Assembly: GCF_028583425.1 (NCBI RefSeq)
Contig: NC_072794.1
Coordinates: forward strand, 23,991,232 to 24,055,231
Reading direction: 5' to 3'
From: Eublepharis macularius
Taxonomy: Eukaryota; Chordata; Lepidosauria; Squamata; Eublepharidae
Length of the DNA stretch: 64,000 nucleotides
Part shown: positions 1,804 to 56,278 of the stretch, piece after piece
Position numbering within the stretch: the first letter of the stretch is position 1
How the letters are laid out: every line of letters begins with the position of its first letter
The notes under the pieces: generated by a model
Database searches by the model: none
What the model was told of the DNA's origin: nothing
The model's input: the letters and a program-made list of their open reading frames with translations, nothing else
Made by a program: the position numbers and the translations under genes

Positions 1804-2423
1804 TTGATCTCTGGGCCGAACAAGATGCAACAGCAGCAGCTTCAACACTAGCTTTATCCAATTGTGCAGAAAGAAAGGGGAAAGAAAAAAGGGACTTGCA
1901 GGTGAGAGATGCAGAATCATCTCCCCACCGGTGCCTTACCTGATCTCCAAGTATCTCCCCCTAACTCATCAGTTCCAGCTTTACAGCTTTTGGGAGCTCC
2001 AGAAAGTTAAATCCAAAGTAGACAGGGCATGTGTGAATTCTGCACTGCTCATCTGCGTAGCCCTTTGCCTTTAAAAACTGGAAGCTCTCACTCTTGCTTT
2101 TTCTACATGAGTGTTTGTTTAAACACGAAGAACTTCCCCTGTCACATCTCGCTTGGTTCAAAGGGAAGGTAGCATACAGCAGATAACAAAAAGAGGAAGG
2201 AGGTCTTTTCAGTATATTGCAAAGCATGTGGTAGCCAAGATCGAGGCCGTGAGCTCAAAAACACCAGACGTAGGGGCAAATGCAAAAGGAAGGTAGGGGT
2301 ATAGCCTGGTTCTTACAGCTACCGCTTCAGACTTCAGGTGGGGCACAAGGACCAAATGCTCCTCTGACCCCCCAAAACGTTACTCCATATAGAAAATAGC
2401 ACTTCTGGAGTTCTAGCCTAATC
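1804..2423 (+). other. Likely 3' UTR and flank of FMO gene A
   Basis: No coding feature or recognised repeat follows the stop codon here. The stretch is probably 3' UTR, but no polyadenylation signal was seen within it. Confidence 0.35.
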
Positions 2424-2632
2424 TTAAAGGTAAAGGTAGTACCCTGTGCAAGTACCGAGTCATTGCTGACCCATGGGGGGGACGGCACATCACGATGTTT
2501 TCTTGGCAGACTTTTGTAACGGGGTGGTTTGCCATTGCCTTCCCCAGTCATCTACACTTTACCCCCAGGAAACTGGGTACTCATTTTACCGACCTTGGAA
2601 GGATGGAAGGCTGAGTCAACCTTGAACGTAGA
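2424..2632 (-). mobile_element. Sauria-type SINE, minus strand, partial
   Basis: Read on the minus strand, this carries the body of the squamate tRNA-derived SINE: GGATGGAAGGCTGAGTCAACC (here in complement), ACTGGGTACTCATTTTACC, GGGGTGGTTTGCCATTGCC and a tail of AAAGGTAAAGGTA units. The tRNA-like head is not recognisable. Three fuller copies of the same family occur at 16405, 17388 and 23780. Confidence 0.75.
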
Positions 2633-3886
2633 CTCCAACCAGTTGTTCATTTAGTCTCAGCATCCTGTATCCCACAGTGGCCAAGCGGTTGCTCTGGAGG
2701 GCCAAACAAATATGACACAAAGGCCAGTGTTATCTCCTGGCACCGGGGCTCAGTGATTTTCTGCATCTGGATGGGGAGGTTCCTTTTTAAAGTTATCTTG
2801 GCTAGTAGCCATTGATGGTCCTATCCTATCCTCCTTTAGTCTGTCTCTAATTCTTTTTTGAAGCCATCTGTGCAAGTGAACATAGAACATAAGATGTACA
2901 TTGCTGGATCAGACCAGTGGACACTCTAGACCACTCACACAGCGGCCAATGATTTGCCCTGGATGGCCAACACACAAGGCGAGAGAGGCCAAAGCTCCCC
3001 CTTACGTTGCCTCCTAGCACTGGTATTCAGAGGTTTACTGCTTTTGGAGATTCCCTTTAGCCATGATGCCTGGTAGCAATCATCACGTTTTCTGTGCCTG
3101 GAAATGTTTTGTACAGAAAAGCATTCAGTCATGTGACACCCCCACACACCACGGTACAGACTGGAACAAAAGTATATTTACTCATCTGCTATTTGTGAGA
3201 ACTATAGGTCCTAATCCTGGCTCCCTGCTGGTATACTTTCAGAAACAAACTAACTAATGTGAGAAAAGGCCCATTGAATATTGTATTAAACAAATAAAGG
3301 CGAGTCCCACACTTAATTCCTTGTCCCAAAGCCAATCTGCTTTGATGATATGCTGGTGCTAAAGAAGAAGAGAAAACAGGAGGAATGAGGAAGGGGAAAA
3401 AAATAAAACAATGTAAGGCTTACACCCCCTCAGAACTTAATAGCCTGGAAGAGCTGAAGACAGACCACCCTACACAATCGGGTTTCTAGTAAGGCAGGAC
3501 CACTTTTCCCAGACCCAAATCACTTCCTGTACAGCCACACAACAGCTGTGGGGAGTGGCATTTGCCCTCAGGGGTCCGATTCTTCTCAGGAGAATGACAT
3601 GAAGGGAGGGAGCTCCAAGCAGAATCAGCCCCCGTGGGCTTCTAAAATGCAGCTTGAATCGTGTAACTTTAGAGAAAAAGGGAGAGTGATAAAAACATGG
3701 TTCCCTGGATGTACCACTAATCATATAATTCATGTTATCCAATGCGGACTCTCTTTCTGCAAGATCAGCCCAGTTTCCTTTACCCAGGCCTGCTATGGGG
3801 TGTGTGATATTTTGCTGTTTGCCCACTTAACACTAAGAATTACATTGCAGACTTGATCTGTGAACCAAAAAGCTGTCAGTCCCAAG
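2633..3886. other. Intergenic, no recognised feature
   Basis: No gene or repeat was recognised. An AATAAA hexamer at 3293-3298 on the + strand could serve gene A if its 3' UTR is about 1.5 kb long. That is only a position-based guess. Confidence 0.3.
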
Positions 3887-4276
3887 TAGAGATGGGCACG
3901 AACCTGAAAAAAACCGAATCATGTGGTTCGTAGTTCGTCAAATTTCACAAACCATGAACCATGAACTTTCACGAACCTGCCCTTGGTTCGTGAACTGGTT
4001 CATTTGGTTCGTGAAAATGTCACATCCAGGTCAGAAAATCATCACTTTCGGGTCAGCAGAAGGTCTGCAGGATGTCTATCCCCTGTTACCTAGGAAACTG
4101 ATTGATTGGCACCAGGCTGTCTGCAGTGACAAACCAAAAAGTGAACCAAACGAACCAGCGTAAAATTTCATGGCAGTTTGTCAGAAATGGGATCTGACAA
4201 ACCCTGGTTCATGAACCACGAACCGGCCTGGTTCATGCTTAATTTTGGTTCATATTTCAGGTCGTGCCCATCTCTA
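3887..4276. mobile_element. Non-autonomous hAT element, TAGAGATGGGCACGAA family, copy 1
   Basis: The terminal inverted repeat TAGAGATGGGCACGAA pairs with TCGTGCCCATCTCTA at the right end. The flanking 8-mers GTCCCAAG (3879-3886) and GTCCCAAC (4277-4284) match at 7 of 8 bases, as expected of an aged hAT TSD. Many subterminal CACGAACC / GGTTCGTG words occur in both directions, a pattern typical of transposase-binding repeats. There is no transposase. Sister copies are at 37610, 43639, 49343 and 53168. Confidence 0.85.
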
Positions 4277-5122
4277 GTCCCAACCAGGACTGAACAGATC
4301 TGTTATCGAATCAAAATATCATGCCCCAAAAGCATTCTGATGACCAAAGTTTAGGAATTTTTAATTAGGTTTGCTGTGTGTCTAAGGGGTGGGGATGGAG
4401 GTGGGACAGGCAAAGATTCATGAGCTTGCAACTGATCAATAAAAGGTATGTATCACACGAATGCTTCCAGTGTGTTTTCTGTAAAAAGAGTTCAATAGTT
4501 CAGTGGCGATATTTCTACAGCCCCACATTATGGACAGACATTATTGGCGAGGGTTACAGGCATAAATATGCAATACTTTGTACTGGGAGGGTGCATGCAT
4601 TTGGATTGGGATCATCGTGTGCAGGAAGAGGGAGCTTTAAGCCCCAGGGAACCACAATTGCCCCCACTCGGGAAACTTAAATGTACCGGTGGACTACACA
4701 GGTATTAATGTCATGGGCTACACATGTAGACTACATTTCCCCAGTGGGGCAAATACTGGCTTCCTGGAGCTGTTTCAGGCTGGGGAGATGGTACTGGAGA
4801 TAGGCTTAAACCCACTCTCCTTGCACTCTATGGTTTTGATCCGAATTAGGCCTCTACACATATGAGAATCAAACTTCAGTTTCCTCTTCTGCTCTAATCA
4901 AGCTAATTACATCTTGCATTGTACCTTAACATCCCAGCTCTCTTCTTTGCAACAAATACAAAAGACTCTTCAGTTAACAAAGCTAGGCTGGCCGATTGAT
5001 CAACAAGCTCAGCTTTGTAACAATAAATAATAATTTTGAGGGAGATAAATACGGGGAATTCACTTATTATAACCGGAAGGCCGCAAGTGTGATTGATGAT
5101 ATATTAATATCACTGTCTCTGT
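4277..5122. other. Intergenic, no recognised feature
   Basis: No gene, RNA or repeat recognised by eye. Confidence 0.3.
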
Positions 5123-18800: not shown

Positions 18801-21800
18801 CTAGCAAGTAAAACACTTGAAATGGGTTCTGCAGATTCTGTTGTAATAGGTATTGTAGATAATATTATTAGTTTTCAGCTGAAATCACAATGTAGCCTAC
18901 AATGGTTATATCAGCAGTATTATGATCCTTGAAGTAGAGAGGGGTTGAGAAGAAGAAGCTGGGAATATAGAGAGAGGAAGACAGATCTAGGGGTGGGGTG
19001 GAGAATAAGGATTACATCATTAGTTTCAAAGATTTTGAAATTCACAGGGATAGTTAGATTATTATCAGTATAAACCAAAACTCATAATGTGGTATGTACA
19101 CTTCTGAGCTGCATGGAACTCTGCCTGAAGCAGGATATTCTAAAGCAATTGTACTTCTGGGCAAGTGCATGAAACCACTGCTAAGTGAAATTCTCTTACT
19201 ATTTTGTTTCTGATAAATTTTGTTTTGATTACAGAGAAACTTGAAAAGAGGGGGGGCAGGAAAGGAGGTTCAGCAAAATTTTAGAATTTCACTCTGTAGA
19301 TGCTTAGAGGCAAACAACATCTTCCCAAACCTTTCTATCCTCCTGCTAGAGCACCCCCTGGTGTGTAACATAAAACAACTGCAAGGGCTGAAGTTACAAA
19401 CAGGTGCATTGATTTTTGCACAAAGAGATTCTCTCTTTAAAGAAAAAAACAAGAGAATAAGAGGAATCAATGGTCCTACCTAAAAAAAGTGAAATTAGGA
19501 AAAAGAAATTCCCCTCCCTATAACAACGCTAGTGCATGGTGTGAACTGTGATGTTTCCAGAGAGTTTGAAAAACTGCTGCTGTCTGGCTGTGTTTGCAAA
19601 GTGTTATAACAAGTGTGCGCAAAGAGGCCCTGACCTGGATTGTCTAGGTGAGCCTGTTCTCGTCAGATCTCAGAAGCTAAGCAGGGTTGGCCTTGGTTAG
19701 TAATTGGATGGGAGACTTCCAATGAAGGCCAGGGTTGTAGAGGCAGGCAATGCAAACCACCTCTGTTAGAGTCTCTATAGATGAGATATCTTACACGAGG
19801 ATGATCAAGTGAAGAGAGATGCATTTTTAGCTGGAAAACGTAGAAGATAGGCTTAGAGCCAAGCTACAAGTGATGCCTGACACAGGTTGGACACTTGTCA
19901 GCTTCCCTCAAGTTTTGATGGGAAATGTAGGCATCCTGGTCTTGCAGCTGTAACGGAGGGCCAAGCTGTAAAACCAGGATGCCTACATTTCCCATCAAAA
20001 CTTGAGGGAAGCTGACAAGTGTCCAACCTGTGTAAGGCATCTCTTGTAGCTTGGCTCTTAGTCACTTTCACCTCTCTACAAAGAGGTGGGAGATCGCTCC
20101 TCAGAGAGTTTGTTTATTTCTTCTTTTCCTCCCCTGACTGGGAGATGAAATTAACATAGCCTTCAGGGAGGAGAAGGGGGAAGAGGAAATTAACAAACCC
20201 TCCAAGGAAGGATCTCCAAGTCTTTGTAGAGAGGTGAAAGCGACAAAGCCTTCTGCTGTGTCTCCAACATTTCCCAGCTAACAGTGCGTCTCTCTTCACT
20301 CGAGCATCCTCGTGTAAGATGTCTTGTCTATAGAGACTCTCAGTCTCTTGCCATGAAAGCCCCACCAGAGGTTGCCATAAGTCAGCTATGACTTGAGGGC
20401 ACTCTCCACCGCCACCATGTACAAAAAGAAGTTGTATATGCTCTATGGGGAAAGGTAGCTTCAAGACAGAGATCTTGAGCTGATGTGGTGCAGTGGATGA
20501 AGTGTTAGACTAGGATTGGGGACACCCAGGTTCAAGTCTGCACTCAGCCATGTAGCTTATTGAGTCACCTTGGGCCTATCAGTCTCATTCAACCTCACCA
20601 GGGTTATTGTGAGAACAAAACAGGAGAAGAACCATGTATAGTGATTGAACTCCGTGGAAGAATTCTGAGGTAAAAATGCATTCTTAGATCAATTGGGACA
20701 GCTGAATTCACTCTGGAATGTCATCAGCTTTCCTAATCTCCTTCTTTTGTTTTCCTGCAGGTGGTTCTGAGCTCTAGGGGGGGCTCCTGGGTGATGAGCC
20801 GTGTGTTTGACAACGGCTATCCCTGGGACGTTATCCTTCACACCCGCTTCAAAAACCTGCTCCTCAATCTCCTCCCTTTGGACATTGTGCGATGGATGGT
20901 AGAAAAGAAGATGAATGAATGGTTTAACCATGAAAACTATGGACTAGTGCCTCAAAACAGGTACATAAAGCTAGAAAAGAACCACTTCGAATGCTTTTGA
21001 TATCTCCAAGTTCAGCTGTCATCAATATTCTACCTTACAGGTTGGTTACAAAGTTGGCGTGGCATTCTGAGCCTGTTGAAAGAAGGGCGAGATTGAAATG
21101 TGACCAAATAATAATGTGATCCCCATTAATAATAATTGGTTTTGCTGTTTTCTGACCTCTTTTTTGTCTACCACTCCTCTCACTGTTGTGCTTTCTTTTA
21201 TCTCGATTTTTAAAAAACTATGCAGTCATTGGTTGTTGTGGGTTTTCCGGGCTTTATTGCCGTGGTCTTGGCATTGTAGTTCCTGACGTCAGGAACTACA
21301 ATGCCAAGACCACGGCAATACAGCCCGGAAAACCCACAACAACCATCGTTCTCCGGCCGTGAAAGCCTTCGACTATGCAGTCATTGCTTTTCAAACAGTG
21401 ACTTCTGGTTGGGTTGAGCTGTGTTCCAGCTGTGTGTGGCTGCTGCTCCGACAGATTTTGTTCAATTGCTAAATGCTTAGTTATCTTAGCTTTTCAAACA
21501 GGAATCTATAGTTGCCAACCTTCAAATTGGTACAAACAAAAAGAGGCTACTTTGTGAAAAGACCGAACCTAAGACAAAATGGGGTGTTTGCCCACCCAAC
21601 CAGAGGTTTAATTAATTAGCAACAAACAGTAATCTCACTAGATGGGTAATTCATAAGAAATTTATACAGCGTCAACTGCATCTGATAATAAGCGATTCTT
21701 ATATTCCCCTCAAGTAATCTTATACGCATCATTCATATACGCAGTATAAATGGAATCCCATGAAATTATCAATGTTCCTATATATAGCATTTACTCATAA

Positions 21801-32687: not shown

Positions 32688-33107
32688 CTAGATCTTCAAC
32701 TATCCATTTTTTTAAAAAAACTTGTGCCAGCAATGCTGTTTTTGCACCTCCCAAATGCCACAGAAATCAAATAAGGGCTAAAAATTAATCTCACTCAAAG
32801 AAAGAAATGTTTGTATTGTTCATACATATGTCATCAGCTTGTTGGGAAAGGGGTGTGTCTTCTTGTACTCTGTAAAGGAACAGGGTAATATATAAATAAT
32901 AAATATTTCATTTGTATTATTTTAGTCACTCGTTTTAACCACTGATCCATGTGAATTACATCAGTGTACTTTCGGCCACTGGTTTGTACACACTCCCAGC
33001 CCAGCCAGACCAGCCGCAAACAGGATTTTTTTTAAACTCACAGTACAAATTTACAGTCCTAAACAGAGTTCCAGCGGAGTTGGCCATGTTAGTCTATAGT
33101 TGCAAAA

Positions 33108-33825
33108 TGTGAACAATGAGTCCGGGAATACACAATAAACCATCAGTTCTTTTTTTCTTTTTCCTATAAACACTGTATTAGTGCAAAGGTGCAAAAGTGC
33201 AAAGTGCAAATGAATAAATACAATATACAATAAATACAATAAGATCTGTTTCTTCTGTCCAAGTCGTTATGGAATAATAACAATGTCCAAAGGGAATGCC
33301 ATGAAAACCCACAATGGGGACTGAGCAATATACAAACGGAGAGTCACAGTCCGTGTTATTATAGTTGTGAATTCATGTTCGTTATGCACTGAAGCTGAGA
33401 AGAATACTATGAGTAGTCACATCGGAGCAATTAGCAAATTGGTGACCATCCAGGATTAATTGTGCCCAGGAAGAAGTATGATCTATACGAAACGGGAATT
33501 GTATAACATGCACGCATAATCCCGTCGGCACATTTGGATTTCTCTTCAACTTGGACTGGGGTCACCCCCCCTTCTAATACTGTGACTCTCCGTTTGTATA
33601 TTGCTCAGTCCCCATTGTGGGTTTTCATGGTATTCCCTTTGGACATTGTTATTATTCCATAACGACTTGGACAGAAGAAACAGGAGATCTTATTGTATTT
33701 ATTGTATATTGTATTTATTCATTTGCACTTTGCACTTTTGCACCTTTGCACTAATACAGTGTTTATAGGAAAAAGAAAAAAAAGAACTGATGGTTTATTG
33801 TGTATTCCCGGACTCGTTGTTCACA
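33108..33825. mobile_element. Foldback element with a hammerhead-like loop (copy 2)
   Basis: The left arm (33108-33350) and right arm (33579-33825) are near-identical inverted copies of about 245 bp. For example ACGGAGAGTCACAGT stands at the left loop edge and ACTGTGACTCTCCGT at the right; CAAAGGTGCAAAAGTGC and its complement lie nearer the ends. The loop of about 228 bp carries the ribozyme-like motif at 33461-33532. I suspect a Penelope-like origin because hammerhead motifs are known in the terminal repeats of that group. Confidence 0.7.
33461..33532 (+). ncRNA. Hammerhead-ribozyme-like motif, all three stems present
   Basis: Stem I is TGTGCC (33461-33466) with GGCACA (33527-33532), fully paired. 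The core is CAGGAAGA (33467-33474) where C-CUGANGA is expected. Stem II is GTAT (33476-33479) with ATAC (33485-33488), loop GATCT. GAAA is at 33489-33492. Stem III is CGGGA (33493-33497) with TCCCG (33520-33524). GTC is at 33524-33526, directly before stem I. The first two core bases depart from the consensus, so cleavage may be lost. Confidence 0.65.
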
Positions 33826-33877
33826 GTTTCTACTATCCAGGCGTTTTCCCTTGTTGTGTTCATTACTTTATAGCAAG

Positions 33878-34005
33878 AAGTCCAGTAGCACCTTTAAGAC
33901 TAACCAACTTTATTGAGGCATAAGCTTTCAAGAACCACAGCTATGGTTCTCAAAATCTTATGCCTCGATAAAGTTGGCTAGTCTTAAAGGTGCTACTGGA
34001 CTTTT
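33878..34005. repeat. Inverted pair of a short dispersed repeat
   Basis: AGTCCAGTAGCACCTTTAAG with ACTAACCAACTTTAT at the left is mirrored by ATAAAGTTGGCTAGT and CTTAAAGGTGCTACTGGACT at the right, around GAACCACAGC / GGTTCTC. It is a common reptile repeat present here as a palindrome. Confidence 0.65.
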
Positions 34006-34050
34006 TACTAATCAGAGTTGTGGCCTTCGAAGCCATTAGCTTCAATGAAT

Positions 34051-39208: not shown

Positions 39209-39410
39209 GAGCCAAGCTACAAGTGAAACCTTACACAGGTTGGACACTTGTCAGCTCACCTCAAGTTTTGAAGGGAAATGTAGGCGTCCTGGTTTTACAG
39301 CTTGGCTCTCCATTATAGCTGCAAGACCAGGATGCCTACATTTCCCATTGAAACTTGAGGGAAGCTGATAAGTGTCCAACCTGTGTCAGGCGTCACTTGT
39401 AGCTTAGCTC
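39209..39410. mobile_element. MITE, GAGCCAAGCTACAAGTG family
   Basis: Near-complete foldback with TGA on both sides (39206-39208 and 39411-39413). About the same length as the innermost element at 19856. Confidence 0.8.
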
Positions 39411-53167: not shown

Positions 53168-53752
53168 TAGAGATGAGCACAAACCACATTACGAACGTCA
53201 AAAAACCACGAAATTGGCGATCACGCGATCGTAATCTGGCGGTTTGTGATTGTCCACAGCCAATGAACCAGCGTTCGGGAGAGGCCTGGTTCGGTGCATT
53301 CGGCCACGGTTTGGGAACCCAGACAGTCAGGTGCCAGCAGTCAATTCCCCTGGCAATGGAGCTGGGGGAATGCCTGAACTCTGTCTGCGCTCCTTCTGTC
53401 GCCCTGGAAACCCAAATCAAAGCCCAGCTTACCTTGATTGGCAGGGCTTCCTTCCAACCATGGAGCTGCAAAGTGGTTACAAGTTGGGAGAAGACACCCA
53501 GGGGAGGGAGGGGGAAGGGGGTGTTCTGTAGCCATGGGCACTACAATCTCATCCCTGCGAACCCTGATAGGCAGCTCTGACGGCCAAACACAGACCTCCT
53601 GTGCTGCTCAATGGGACCTGTGCTTATAAATAGCCGTGGGCTCCCAGGCTGGGTTTCACTTTCAGCAAGCAGTGGAGTGGAACAGAGCTCTTGCTTGCCA
53701 CTTCCTAACCTTCGGGGAGAGAGACTGAGAGTATAATTGAGCTTGGATTTTT

Positions 53753-56278
53753 GTGGGAGTTTCCTGGGGGCCTTGGATTGGAGAGGGTATAACTCCAAAA
53801 TCCCTTTTGCAATCTTGTCCAAACTTGGGTGATAGTTGCCCGGTATGTCAGCAGGTGGGCCACAATAAAGATCACGCAAAGGCACCTCTTCAGAGGGTAC
53901 CAATTATTCCTGAGCCCTTTGCTGAGATTCAAGTGGATGTCCAAGGACCATTTCCAGTCTCACGGGCAGGTAAAAGATTTATTTTAGTTATAGTGGATCA
54001 TTTTTCTGGGTACCCCATAGCTGTCCCCTTGAGAACAGCTACAGCCGAAAATGTTGCCAAGGGTTTATTAGATCAAATTGCTATTTTTGGGTGGCCACAA
54101 GTTATCACCTCAGATAGAGGAAGTTGCTTCCTTAATAAGTTGATGCAAAAGCTGTATGAATTGGCTGGAGTAAGGCAAAATCTTTCAGCAGCATATCATC
54201 CTCAGTCCCATGGCTCAGCTGAACGTTGGGGGGGAACTCTTGTCCGCATGATAAAGGCATTTTGCCACGAAAAACAAGGCACATGGGACCAAAACTTACA
54301 GTTGTTGGTCTCTGCATACAGAGAGGCCCCTCATCCATCGTTAGGGGGCCTGTCACCAAACGAGGTAATGTTTGGTAGAAAGATTGCAGGACTGATGCAT
54401 CTGATACGTCAAAAGTGGGAGGGTGTAACAACCCTTGATCAATCAAAATCTGTTACCCAGTTTTTTGTTAATTTGCAAGAGAACTTAAAGCGAGTCCAAG
54501 CAATAGCTTTAGAGGCTTTGGAAGAAGCTCGAGGGAGGAATAAAGCCTATTTTGATAGGACAGCTAAGGTTAGAACCTTGCAGAAGGGGGACTTAGCATT
54601 GATTCTAACTCCTGGAATTCCTGGGAAGTTGGATCTTCAATGGGAGGGCCCTTATGAAGTTGTGGAGTGCTGTGAGGATAACAATTATAAGATTTGTGAC
54701 CCAGTTAAAGGCACCTTACTGTCTCATATAAACCGTCTGAAGAAATTTGTGCCAAGGACTGCTAAACAGTTCTCAGTAGCAACCTGGCCTGAGCAGGATT
54801 TTGAAATCCCTCACCTACTGGGTGACTGTGCGAGGCCTGATGGCATAGCTCAGTTGCCTATGGGAGAAAACTTGTCTGTTCAGCAAAAAGAGCAGCTGAT
54901 GATGTTGTTGAAAGACTATCAATTATTGTTTACTAACAAGCCTGGCAGGACACATTTGATTGAGCATGATTTGGACACTGGAGATGCTGAACCAGTAAGG
55001 AGCCCTATGCATCCGATCAGGGGGCCCCTGCGGCAAGTTGTGGAAAAGGAAATACAGCAAATGTTAGAGATGGGAGTTATTGAGCCAACTTCATCCCAGT
55101 GGTCTTCTAATCTCGTAATTGTGCCAAAGAAAAGGCTCAATGAAACAGATCCCTTGCAATACCGCCTGTGTGTGGATTATAGGAAGCTGAATAAGCTGTG
55201 CAAAATGGATCAGTATCCATCACCTAATGTTGAGGAGACTTTGGAGAGACTGGCCCATGCTAAATACATCTCCACTGTGGATCTTACAAGTGGTTATTGG
55301 CAGTTGCCGCTTTCTGAAAGTGCTAAAGAGAAGACTGCATTTTCTTGTTTCCTCGGACAGTTTCGTTTTACAGTCTTGCCCTTTGGAGTCTGCACAGCTA
55401 GCAAGGTGTTCCAAAGGTTGATGGATCAAGTCTTATCTGGACTAACATTTGCAGTGAGTTTTCAAGATGATATTGCAGTGATTAGTTCCACTTGGGAGGA
55501 ACACCTGAGACACTTGGATATGGTGCTCCAGAGGATCCAGCAAGCAGGACTTACTGTAAAGCCCCAAAAATGTCAACTTGCCAGCAGTAGCGTGCTATAT
55601 CTGGGACATCAAATAGGGGGTGGGAAAATAGCACCCCATAAAGCAAAGGTTGATGCCATAATGAACTGGCCTTCACCTATCACTAAAAAACAAGTCCAGA
55701 GTTTCTTAGGTGCTGCTGGGTTTTATCGTCGCTTTATTCCCAACTATAGTGATCTGGCAGCTCCTTTAACTGACTTGTGTAAGAAAGACGTTCCAATCAG
55801 AATTCGGTGGACTCCTGCTTGCCAACAAGCATTTGAGGCCATTAAACAATATCTAGCACATGCCCCTGTATTAAAACCTCCTGACTACACTGAACCCTTT
55901 ATTGTGAGAACTGATGCCTCAAGGAATGGGTTAGGTGTGGTGTTGCTGCAGAAGGGCTCAGATGATTGTCTTCATCCTGTAGTGTACCTCAGTCGTAAAC
56001 TTCTACCCAGAGAAAAGAGGTACAGTGTGGGCGAAATTGAGGCATTGGCCTTAACCTGGGGAATTAATAAATTGAGAACATATCTAAGGGGAACTCATTT
56101 CCATCTAGAGACAGATCATAATCCCCTTACATTCATCCACAGGATGAAGGAGACAAATTCCAGGGTGATGAGGTGGGCTTTAAGCCTGCAAGACTTCTCC
56201 TTTGATGTAATACACATCAAGGGGAAAGATAACATTTTAGCTGATGCCTTGTCCAGGTGTCATGAAGAAGATGACTAA
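53753..56278 (+). mobile_element. Gmr1-like (Ty3/gypsy) retrotransposon pol region, integrase before RT
   Basis: A fossil LTR-type element of the Gmr1 group, a Ty3/gypsy branch whose pol order resembles Ty1/copia. Order along the frame: integrase zinc-finger remainder (SCPVCQ), integrase core with D62, D121 and E157 (35 residues between the last two), a WEGPYEVVE GPY/F-like module near residue 300, reverse transcriptase (CVDYRKLNKL near 472; FQDD near 569), then RNase H (TDASRNGLG near 718, TDHNPLTF near 785). The element is incomplete as seen: gag, protease and a second LTR were not recognised. It lies inside the hAT element at 53168-57147, so it is younger than that copy. Confidence 0.85.

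Follow-up and report, generated by a model that had tools for sequence, protein, structure and literature searches.

Does a foldback repeat in the genome of Eublepharis macularius descend from a Penelope-like element (PLE), and does its loop encode a hammerhead ribozyme? Both questions are raised by a window of 64,000 nucleotides (the whole stretch of DNA that was analysed; contig NC_072794.1, positions 23,991,232 to 24,055,231), for which a first-pass annotation, made from the letters alone, had proposed a PLE-derived foldback with a hammerhead fold in its loop. The descent of the foldback from a 5'-truncated PLE is strongly supported, and at 33461-33532 there is a genuine hammerhead-like fold that is unlikely to be a product of chance. 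Taken as a whole, we consider it fairly probable that a pLTR of a PLE, inserted here as a head-to-head truncated pair, encodes a hammerhead-type RNA with a likely role in self-cleavage in the parent elements.

Layout and origin of the foldback

The whole insertion lies at 33105..33866 on the plus strand and consists of two head-to-head, 5'-truncated pLTR copies. Its arms (33096-33350 and 33579-33836) are 96.5% identical, and its ends, at about 33105-33109 and at 33863-33866, were placed with the help of other copies and of locus L022, which holds an uninterrupted copy of the older host repeat that the insertion interrupts. Arm alignment and mapping of the pLTR unit place an inverted, shorter copy without tail at 33105..33350 on the minus strand; the sense copy, also 5'-truncated and with a tail on its outer end, lies at 33351..33866 on the plus strand. 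The loop region of the foldback has at least 51 matching pieces in the genome, the window's own included, and the unit was mapped in 37 other loci. Searches over the 2.24-Gb genome score the best candidates only, so that copy numbers are lower bounds. Beside the insertion, at 33871-34010, the host repeat forms a palindrome with 70-nt arms (89%) that draws spurious Rfam miRNA matches.

The pLTR unit is present in both orientations at 23 of the 38 loci (window included), and the plus copy follows the minus copy at every one of the 23; the heads therefore meet and the tails point outwards. Besides the window there are 22 two-sided loci. At 13 of them a long outer end (33857-33869) is combined with a short one (33812-33838); the remaining nine have one or both ends outside these ranges, and a pair of long ends occurs at none. 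The left end of the window copy is short, its right end being unmeasurable with the window as its own query. This asymmetry and a published 31-bp tail (PMC3846280) place the tail at 33825..33866 (plus strand), at the right end only. In that paper, the Penelope elements of Adineta vaga likewise have inverted pLTRs, mostly head-to-head, one of them 37 bp shorter, and the 31-bp tail is optional.

The coding capacity of longer relatives bears on the same question. Copies L050, L051 and L052 run upstream into a frame ending in a GIY-YIG-like domain; the endonuclease (EN) fragment of L050 matches Pfam GIY-YIG with an E value of 5e-6, above the cut-off, and has at least 150 scored matches in the genome. 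A tandem sister, L060, has a period of 3766 and comprises an EN end, a pLTR (610-1403), ORF1 (1404-2174) and ORF2 (2120-4375), with the motif at 971-1049 within the pLTR. ORF2 matches RVT_1 with an E value of 5e-9; its GIY-YIG match, at E 0.003, falls short of the curated cut-off. A PDB sequence search with the EN fragment and ORF2 returned no match. Reverse transcriptase and GIY-YIG endonuclease are thus both present in the coding region, and the pLTRs are tandem or inverted with an optional tail, as in PLEs. A Cys-rich stretch, CGDCNVC, was seen by eye upstream of the EN in L050 and L060, and a stretch of this kind is reported for Neptune elements in PMC3846280. In this feature the elements described here resemble the Neptune clade, whereas those of Adineta vaga belong to the Penelope/Poseidon group (PMC3846280). 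The PLE descent proposed by the first-pass annotation is strongly supported by the GIY-YIG frame upstream in L050, the sister with both domains and the motif in its pLTR, and the inverted layout with a tail. Given its truncated structure, the window copy is presumably a relic unable to process anything.

Two further observations concern the PLEs. Clusters of recently copied PLE motifs run as minus and then plus units, that is, as inverted tandem arrays growing from a centre, at six places in the genome assembly (G000): C4:92929358-92942025, C5:32169549-32176049, C2:180667465-180673059, C14:26248190-26255435, C7:120330276-120335990 and C17:29146314-29150445. In addition, a UUUUUUA heptamer lies at the ORF1/ORF2 overlap of L060 (2120-2126), in phase with ORF1, and ORF2 (the RT-EN frame) is in the -1 frame. 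Heptamer and -1-frame RT-EN are present in all seven copies examined (L060 and L204-L209, whose subfamilies are not all independent), and, judged by eye, a short stem may follow some 6 nt further on, its pairs not always the same (GGTC/GACC, GCCTC/GAGGC). The arrangement suggests programmed -1 frameshifting in these PLEs, and a literature search found no published account of PLE frameshifting by title.

Elsewhere in the window, an 845-aa open frame at 53741-56278 reads by eye as the integrase followed by the reverse transcriptase/RNase H of a retroelement. Sub-threshold mir-30-like matches lie at 19918-19995 and 39271-39348 (46.9 and 33.9 bits, cut-off 50.2), and a sub-threshold 5S-rRNA-like match at 19627-19745 (34.6, cut-off 38).

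A conserved motif with three stems

The hammerhead-type motif (33461..33532, plus strand, as are all its parts) has the layout TGTGCC-CAGGAAGAA-GTATG-ATC-TATAC-GAA-ACGGGA-(22 nt)-TCCCGT-C-GGCACA. It was delimited from the sequence, the minimum free energy (MFE) fold, alignments of copies, a covariance model (R1), a descriptor scan and column counts. The 5' strand of stem I (TGTGCC, 33461..33466) pairs with its 3' strand (GGCACA, 33527..33532). Stem-loop II, GTATG-ATC-TATAC, occupies 33476..33488, with strands at 33476-33480 and 33484-33488. G12, A13 and A14 follow at 33489..33491, the GAAA being 33489-33492, and stem-loop III spans 33492..33525, with strands ACGGGA and TCCCGT at 33492-33497 and 33520-33525 and an inner TTGT/ATAA helix. 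Nucleotide C17 (33526) stands immediately before stem I, and cleavage is predicted 3' of it. Most rows of alignment A2 (see below) also have, by eye, a GCNNGC-like element in the loop of stem III (GCACGC, GCTGGC or GCTAGC; GCACGC at 33510..33515 in the window), which could be a kissing or protein site and is absent from some rows.

The first-pass annotation had thus placed all three stems, the GAAA and the GTC ahead of stem I correctly. Its claim of right spacing fared less well, since nine nucleotides (CAGGAAGAA) stand between stems I and II, compared with seven in CUGANGA; because this length was not counted, the statement that only the first two core bases deviate understates the difference.

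All three stems are present in the MFE structure of 33440-33550, the folding energy of which is the same as that of shuffled sequences (z 0.05). In the ensemble of 33449-33545, pair probabilities are 0.95-1.0 for stem I, about 0.6 for stem II (0.42 at its last pair) and 0.58-0.71 for stem III, and the inner helix of stem III is weak in this copy (0.16-0.20). The predicted fold of the window copy also has a bulge in stem I and a loop II, between which a tertiary contact of the hammerhead kind could form. A stem-based descriptor, its stem lengths fitted post hoc to this very candidate, matched once on the two strands of the 64-kb window and never in 200 Markov-1 windows.

Within the family, the motif forms an island of conservation. 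Among 42 family copies from 37 loci, the segment 33456-33535 has a mean identity of 96% to the window, and other segments of the unit 70-90%; the motif is more similar than the downstream segment 33579-33835 in every one of the 42, a contrast biased towards the motif because the search query contained it and partly due to truncations outside it. Sets chosen by their EN are free of this query bias. Ten and then 14 copies were picked from 150 EN-fragment matches listed, and eight from 78 GIY-YIG matches, by identity and open-frame length and before the motif was searched for in them. With the R1 model, built from 16 window-family copies and L060, the motif was found in 10 of 10 EN-chosen copies of 60-87% EN identity (E<=2.8e-5; one, L068, is without the 3' half) and, at E<=0.001, in 11 of the 14 further ones. 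It was not found in L073, L076 and L077, perhaps since just 311 nt were fetched. Three of the eight more distant GIY-YIG pieces reached E<=0.001 (L086, L090, L091), three scored more weakly (L085, L087, L088) and L089 and L092 gave none; L047, L048 and L049 scored E 0.05-0.06 and L046 gave no match.

The motifs of the window and L060 are 88% identical (70/80), and the sole long alignment elsewhere in the pLTR reaches 68% over 219 columns. Among 40 listed matches to the L060 motif, 14, L060 included, share 100% identity and are spread over six contigs, and the family has therefore been copied recently. Eight copies (L027, L030, L033, L035, L039, L040, L041, L042) hold some 80-120 extra bp between 33448 and 33449, just upstream of the motif.

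Paired changes were counted in two alignments. A2, fitted with R1, was given 27 sources and has 26 rows, L085 falling below threshold; left out were L068 (3' half missing), L080 (cut by the fetched end), L087, L088, L049 (its motif is that of L047), L046, L073, L076, L077, L089 and L092. A3 was aligned blind to structure and has 29 rows, L068, L080 and L087 being re-admitted. In A2, 92.2% of 502 cells are paired and changes on both sides occur at 13 of 21 pairs, in 43 cells, counts that ignore shared ancestry; none of 500 shuffles reaches any of five pair measures, and with the partners slid out of register 28-40% of cells are paired. In A3, 82.8% of 580 cells are paired and 37 cells change on both sides (again ignoring shared ancestry), and paired cells, two-sided cells and the covariation score all exceed every one of 500 shuffles; the 11 pairs with two-sided change were matched by 41 of the 500, and the number of pair types by 130. 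RNAalifold recovers 15 hammerhead pairs on A2; on the structure-blind A3 it gives six pairs only and the hammerhead is not recovered. The earlier expectation of paired changes across copies is thus borne out on the fitted alignment and more weakly on the other. An alignment of the window family with L060 (A1) has little covariation.

Two-sided paired changes occur in all three stems across subfamilies. Stem I appears as TGTGCC/GGCACA, ATATTGCC/GGCAATAT and TTGGC/GCCAA, and stem II, in which three of five pairs change on both sides, as GTATG/TATAC, GTGTG/TACAC, GTGTT/AACAC and GTGAA/TTCAC; stem II all but disappears in L047, L048 and L086. Of 26 copies folded singly by MFE, 12 contain all three stems; taken one by one, stem I is seen in 19, stem II in 12 and stem III in 18.

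A lengthened junction in place of the canonical core

Junction I/II of the window copy (33467..33475) is read here as Y3, two variable nucleotides, G5 A6 N7 G8 A9 and an extra A, a numbering that is our own reading. Invariant in all 26 A2 rows are G8, A9, the A added ahead of stem II, A13, A14 and the A15.1-U16.1 pair that closes stem III; G5 (24/26), A6 (25/26) and G12 (24/26) are nearly so. Position 7 is A in 22, U in 3 and G in 1. C3-U4 is replaced by Y-N-N in A2, the first place being C in 18 rows, U in 7 and G in 1, and the C3/U4 region is altered in every copy. The junction is nine nucleotides long in 23 of 26 copies, eight in L060 (CAGAGGAA) and L064 (CAGAAGAA), and six in L078, which has lost three nucleotides of the core. 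The junction CTGGATGAA, present in L081, L083 and L084, can be read as CUGAUGA with two single insertions; from the sequence, the register of the insertion is compatible with more than one placement and cannot be fixed.

In hammerheads, positions 7 and 17 are classically free or half-free, position 17 accepting any nucleotide but G. Position 17 is C in 18, U in 6 and A in 2 of the 26 copies, and never G; as read from these sequences, the pattern of constraint at positions 5-9 and 12-17 agrees with the hammerhead rules. The three-way junction with stems I, II and III and the GAAA with A15.1-U16.1 are likewise as in canonical hammerheads. The stretch between stems I and II is YNN-GANGA-A and not CUGANGA, and for this reason the motif is classed as hammerhead-type and not as a member of the canonical family. 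We call it a hammerhead-type variant with putative cleavage.

Rfam models agree with this placing. No Rfam hammerhead family reaches gathering in the window, and relaxing the limit to E<=10 brings none, whether 1001 nt, 131 nt or the whole window is scanned; ten relatives scanned at the same limit gave no match either. Canonical Rfam membership is rejected on these absent matches. As a control, 12 loci were scanned among 80 listed (110 found) bacterial and archaeal loci with the canonical core pattern, and two reached gathering, so that the models work but their sensitivity is limited. Genome searches with RF00163 and RF00008 gave none among the best 73 of 236278 and the best 68 of 282859 candidates, respectively, which says little because so few candidates were scored. 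The first-pass annotation had named two outcomes that would tell against it: the lack of an Rfam match in the window copy, which was found, and a consensus that breaks the stems, which was not, the stems being retained in most family copies. Its hammerhead reading thus stands for homology and fold, on the conserved island, the covariation of the fitted alignment and the constraint on the core, but not in canonical form. A scan of viral_contigs for the motif gave a single contig, where the pattern match falls within an apparent phage coding frame and R1 does not match.

Published PLE hammerheads resemble the motif in being hammerhead-type motifs of pLTRs, in tandem copies and many per genome (PMC6155905; PMC7761336). 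These reviews describe them as minimal type I motifs, usually without helix III and tertiary contacts, with an unknown role. In contrast, the motif described here has a stem III of 6 bp, followed by an inner helix whose loop is conserved, and its junction I/II is 8-9 nt long in 25 of 26 copies and not CUGANGA. HHmeta and HHphage also have extra nucleotides on the stem I side of the core. They are three saltern sequences, of which one was tested and found impaired without high salt or Mg (PMC3088659); here there are many copies in one large genome, and an additional A after A9. The same paper reports natural core variants of reduced activity, and describes cleavage as impaired in standard conditions when the core carries insertions close to C3.

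A viroid hammerhead described by De la Pena and Flores in 2001 reportedly also has an additional A after A9, in a core that is otherwise canonical; its host is unrelated.

Proposed cleavage, possible protein help and alternative readings

The data show the PLE origin, the conservation and the presence in recently copied elements, and support the fold; from here on we infer catalysis, help by a protein and a role in processing. On the best explanation, the pLTR was inserted as two head-to-head, 5'-truncated copies into the older repeat, and it encodes an RNA of type I topology in which stem III is long and junction I/II is lengthened to YNN-GANGA-A. The parent elements are arranged in tandem, with one motif per pLTR, and there the motif most likely serves the self-cleavage of tandem transcripts 3' of position 17. 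In L060, cleavage after C17 (nt 1040) would free unit-length RNAs whose first ORF1 ATG, at 1410, lies 370 nt downstream. The foldback itself could have formed from two cDNAs meeting at their truncated 5' ends, both strands having been cut and extended; for the inverted pLTR layout, PMC3846280 favours self-priming.

Cleavage may need the protein of the element, as in the Poseidon element of Anolis carolinensis (PAc). According to PMC11167929, the PAc hammerhead cleaves only with protein present and C3G abolishes its cleavage; in vitro the protein both cuts and extends the two strands of DNA, reverse transcription starts internally with the tail between two start sites, and no RNA ends were noted at the PAc cut site in public RNA-seq. 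PAc is likewise a PLE with a GIY-YIG EN, a pLTR and a hammerhead, and cutting and extension of both strands fits the head-to-head insertions seen here. The PAc hammerhead differs in overlapping the start of the ORF and in keeping C3 and G8 (PMC11167929), whereas the motif of L060 lies about 370 nt upstream of ORF1 with C3/U4 out of register.

Because of the published core variants (PMC3088659) and the Anolis results (PMC11167929), the reading we hold most likely is that the motifs are cleaving hammerhead variants, possibly assisted by protein, that cut tandem PLE transcripts. Against it stand the missing Rfam match, the displacement of C3/U4 from the standard position, the failure of RNAalifold on A3, the two A3 measures that shuffles reach, the z value of 0.05 and the 12 of 26 single-copy folds with all stems. 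The damaged core of L078, the poor stem II of L047, L048 and L086 and the lost 3' half of L068 also count against it, as do the effect of C3G and of published insertions near C3, the insertion by Anolis ribozyme mutants in vitro and the lack of RNA ends at the PAc cut site. In its strongest form, the motifs would be a separate self-cleaving lineage, in which C3/U4 gave way to three mostly free nucleotides and an A was added after A9, with activity kept by the PLE protein and/or the long stem III in recently copied PLEs. We put this forward tentatively, at somewhat less than even chances.

A serious rival, though a less likely one, is that the RNA is derived from a hammerhead and no longer cleaves; the PLE protein would bind the structure, which would be retained for packaging or for placing reverse transcription. 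Such a role would fit the alteration of the C3/U4 region throughout the alignment, and Anolis ribozyme mutants still insert in vitro (PMC11167929); yet the invariant G8, A9, A13 and A14 and the absence of G at position 17 look like catalytic constraint. Moreover, the same paper locates the Anolis protein-binding motif within the ORF's first 172 nt, and Anolis templates that lack most of the pLTR still work.

It is improbable that the conservation reflects a DNA element, such as a promoter or an endonuclease target in the pLTR. The near-invariant sequence within the window family, much of the loops included, could be explained in this way, and putative promoter motifs are mentioned for published pLTRs in PMC3846280, but two-sided changes in all three stems across subfamilies argue against it. 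Chance resemblance in a palindromic repeat, with no relation to hammerheads, would agree with the missing Rfam match and the shuffle-like folding energy; it is contradicted by the conserved island, the covariation, the motif in all ten EN-chosen relatives and the empty Markov windows of the post hoc descriptor, and has very little left in its favour. Hardly any weight remains on a DNA-transposon-type or twin-primed LINE foldback, since the long, nearly identical arms, which had first suggested a DNA-transposon or LTR origin, are outweighed by the GIY-YIG frame upstream of the unit, the uniform head-to-head order and the asymmetric tail.

Hammerheads in PLEs are already published, motifs in PLE pLTRs reportedly by Cervera & de la Pena (2014) and by Lunse et al. 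(2017); it is the YNN-GANGA-A core variant that may be new. A literature search over titles and the starts of abstracts, the text of these two papers lying outside it, found no account of this core. Standard models can miss a motif family present in many copies of one genome, and a separate lineage with an altered core, if true, would explain why they do so here and would widen the definition of the hammerhead core. The PLEs of this genome provide 26 or more related natural motifs in which the core departs consistently from CUGANGA and the rest follows hammerhead rules; with them it can be asked directly how much of the core a hammerhead can do without, and whether PLE proteins serve as ribozyme cofactors.
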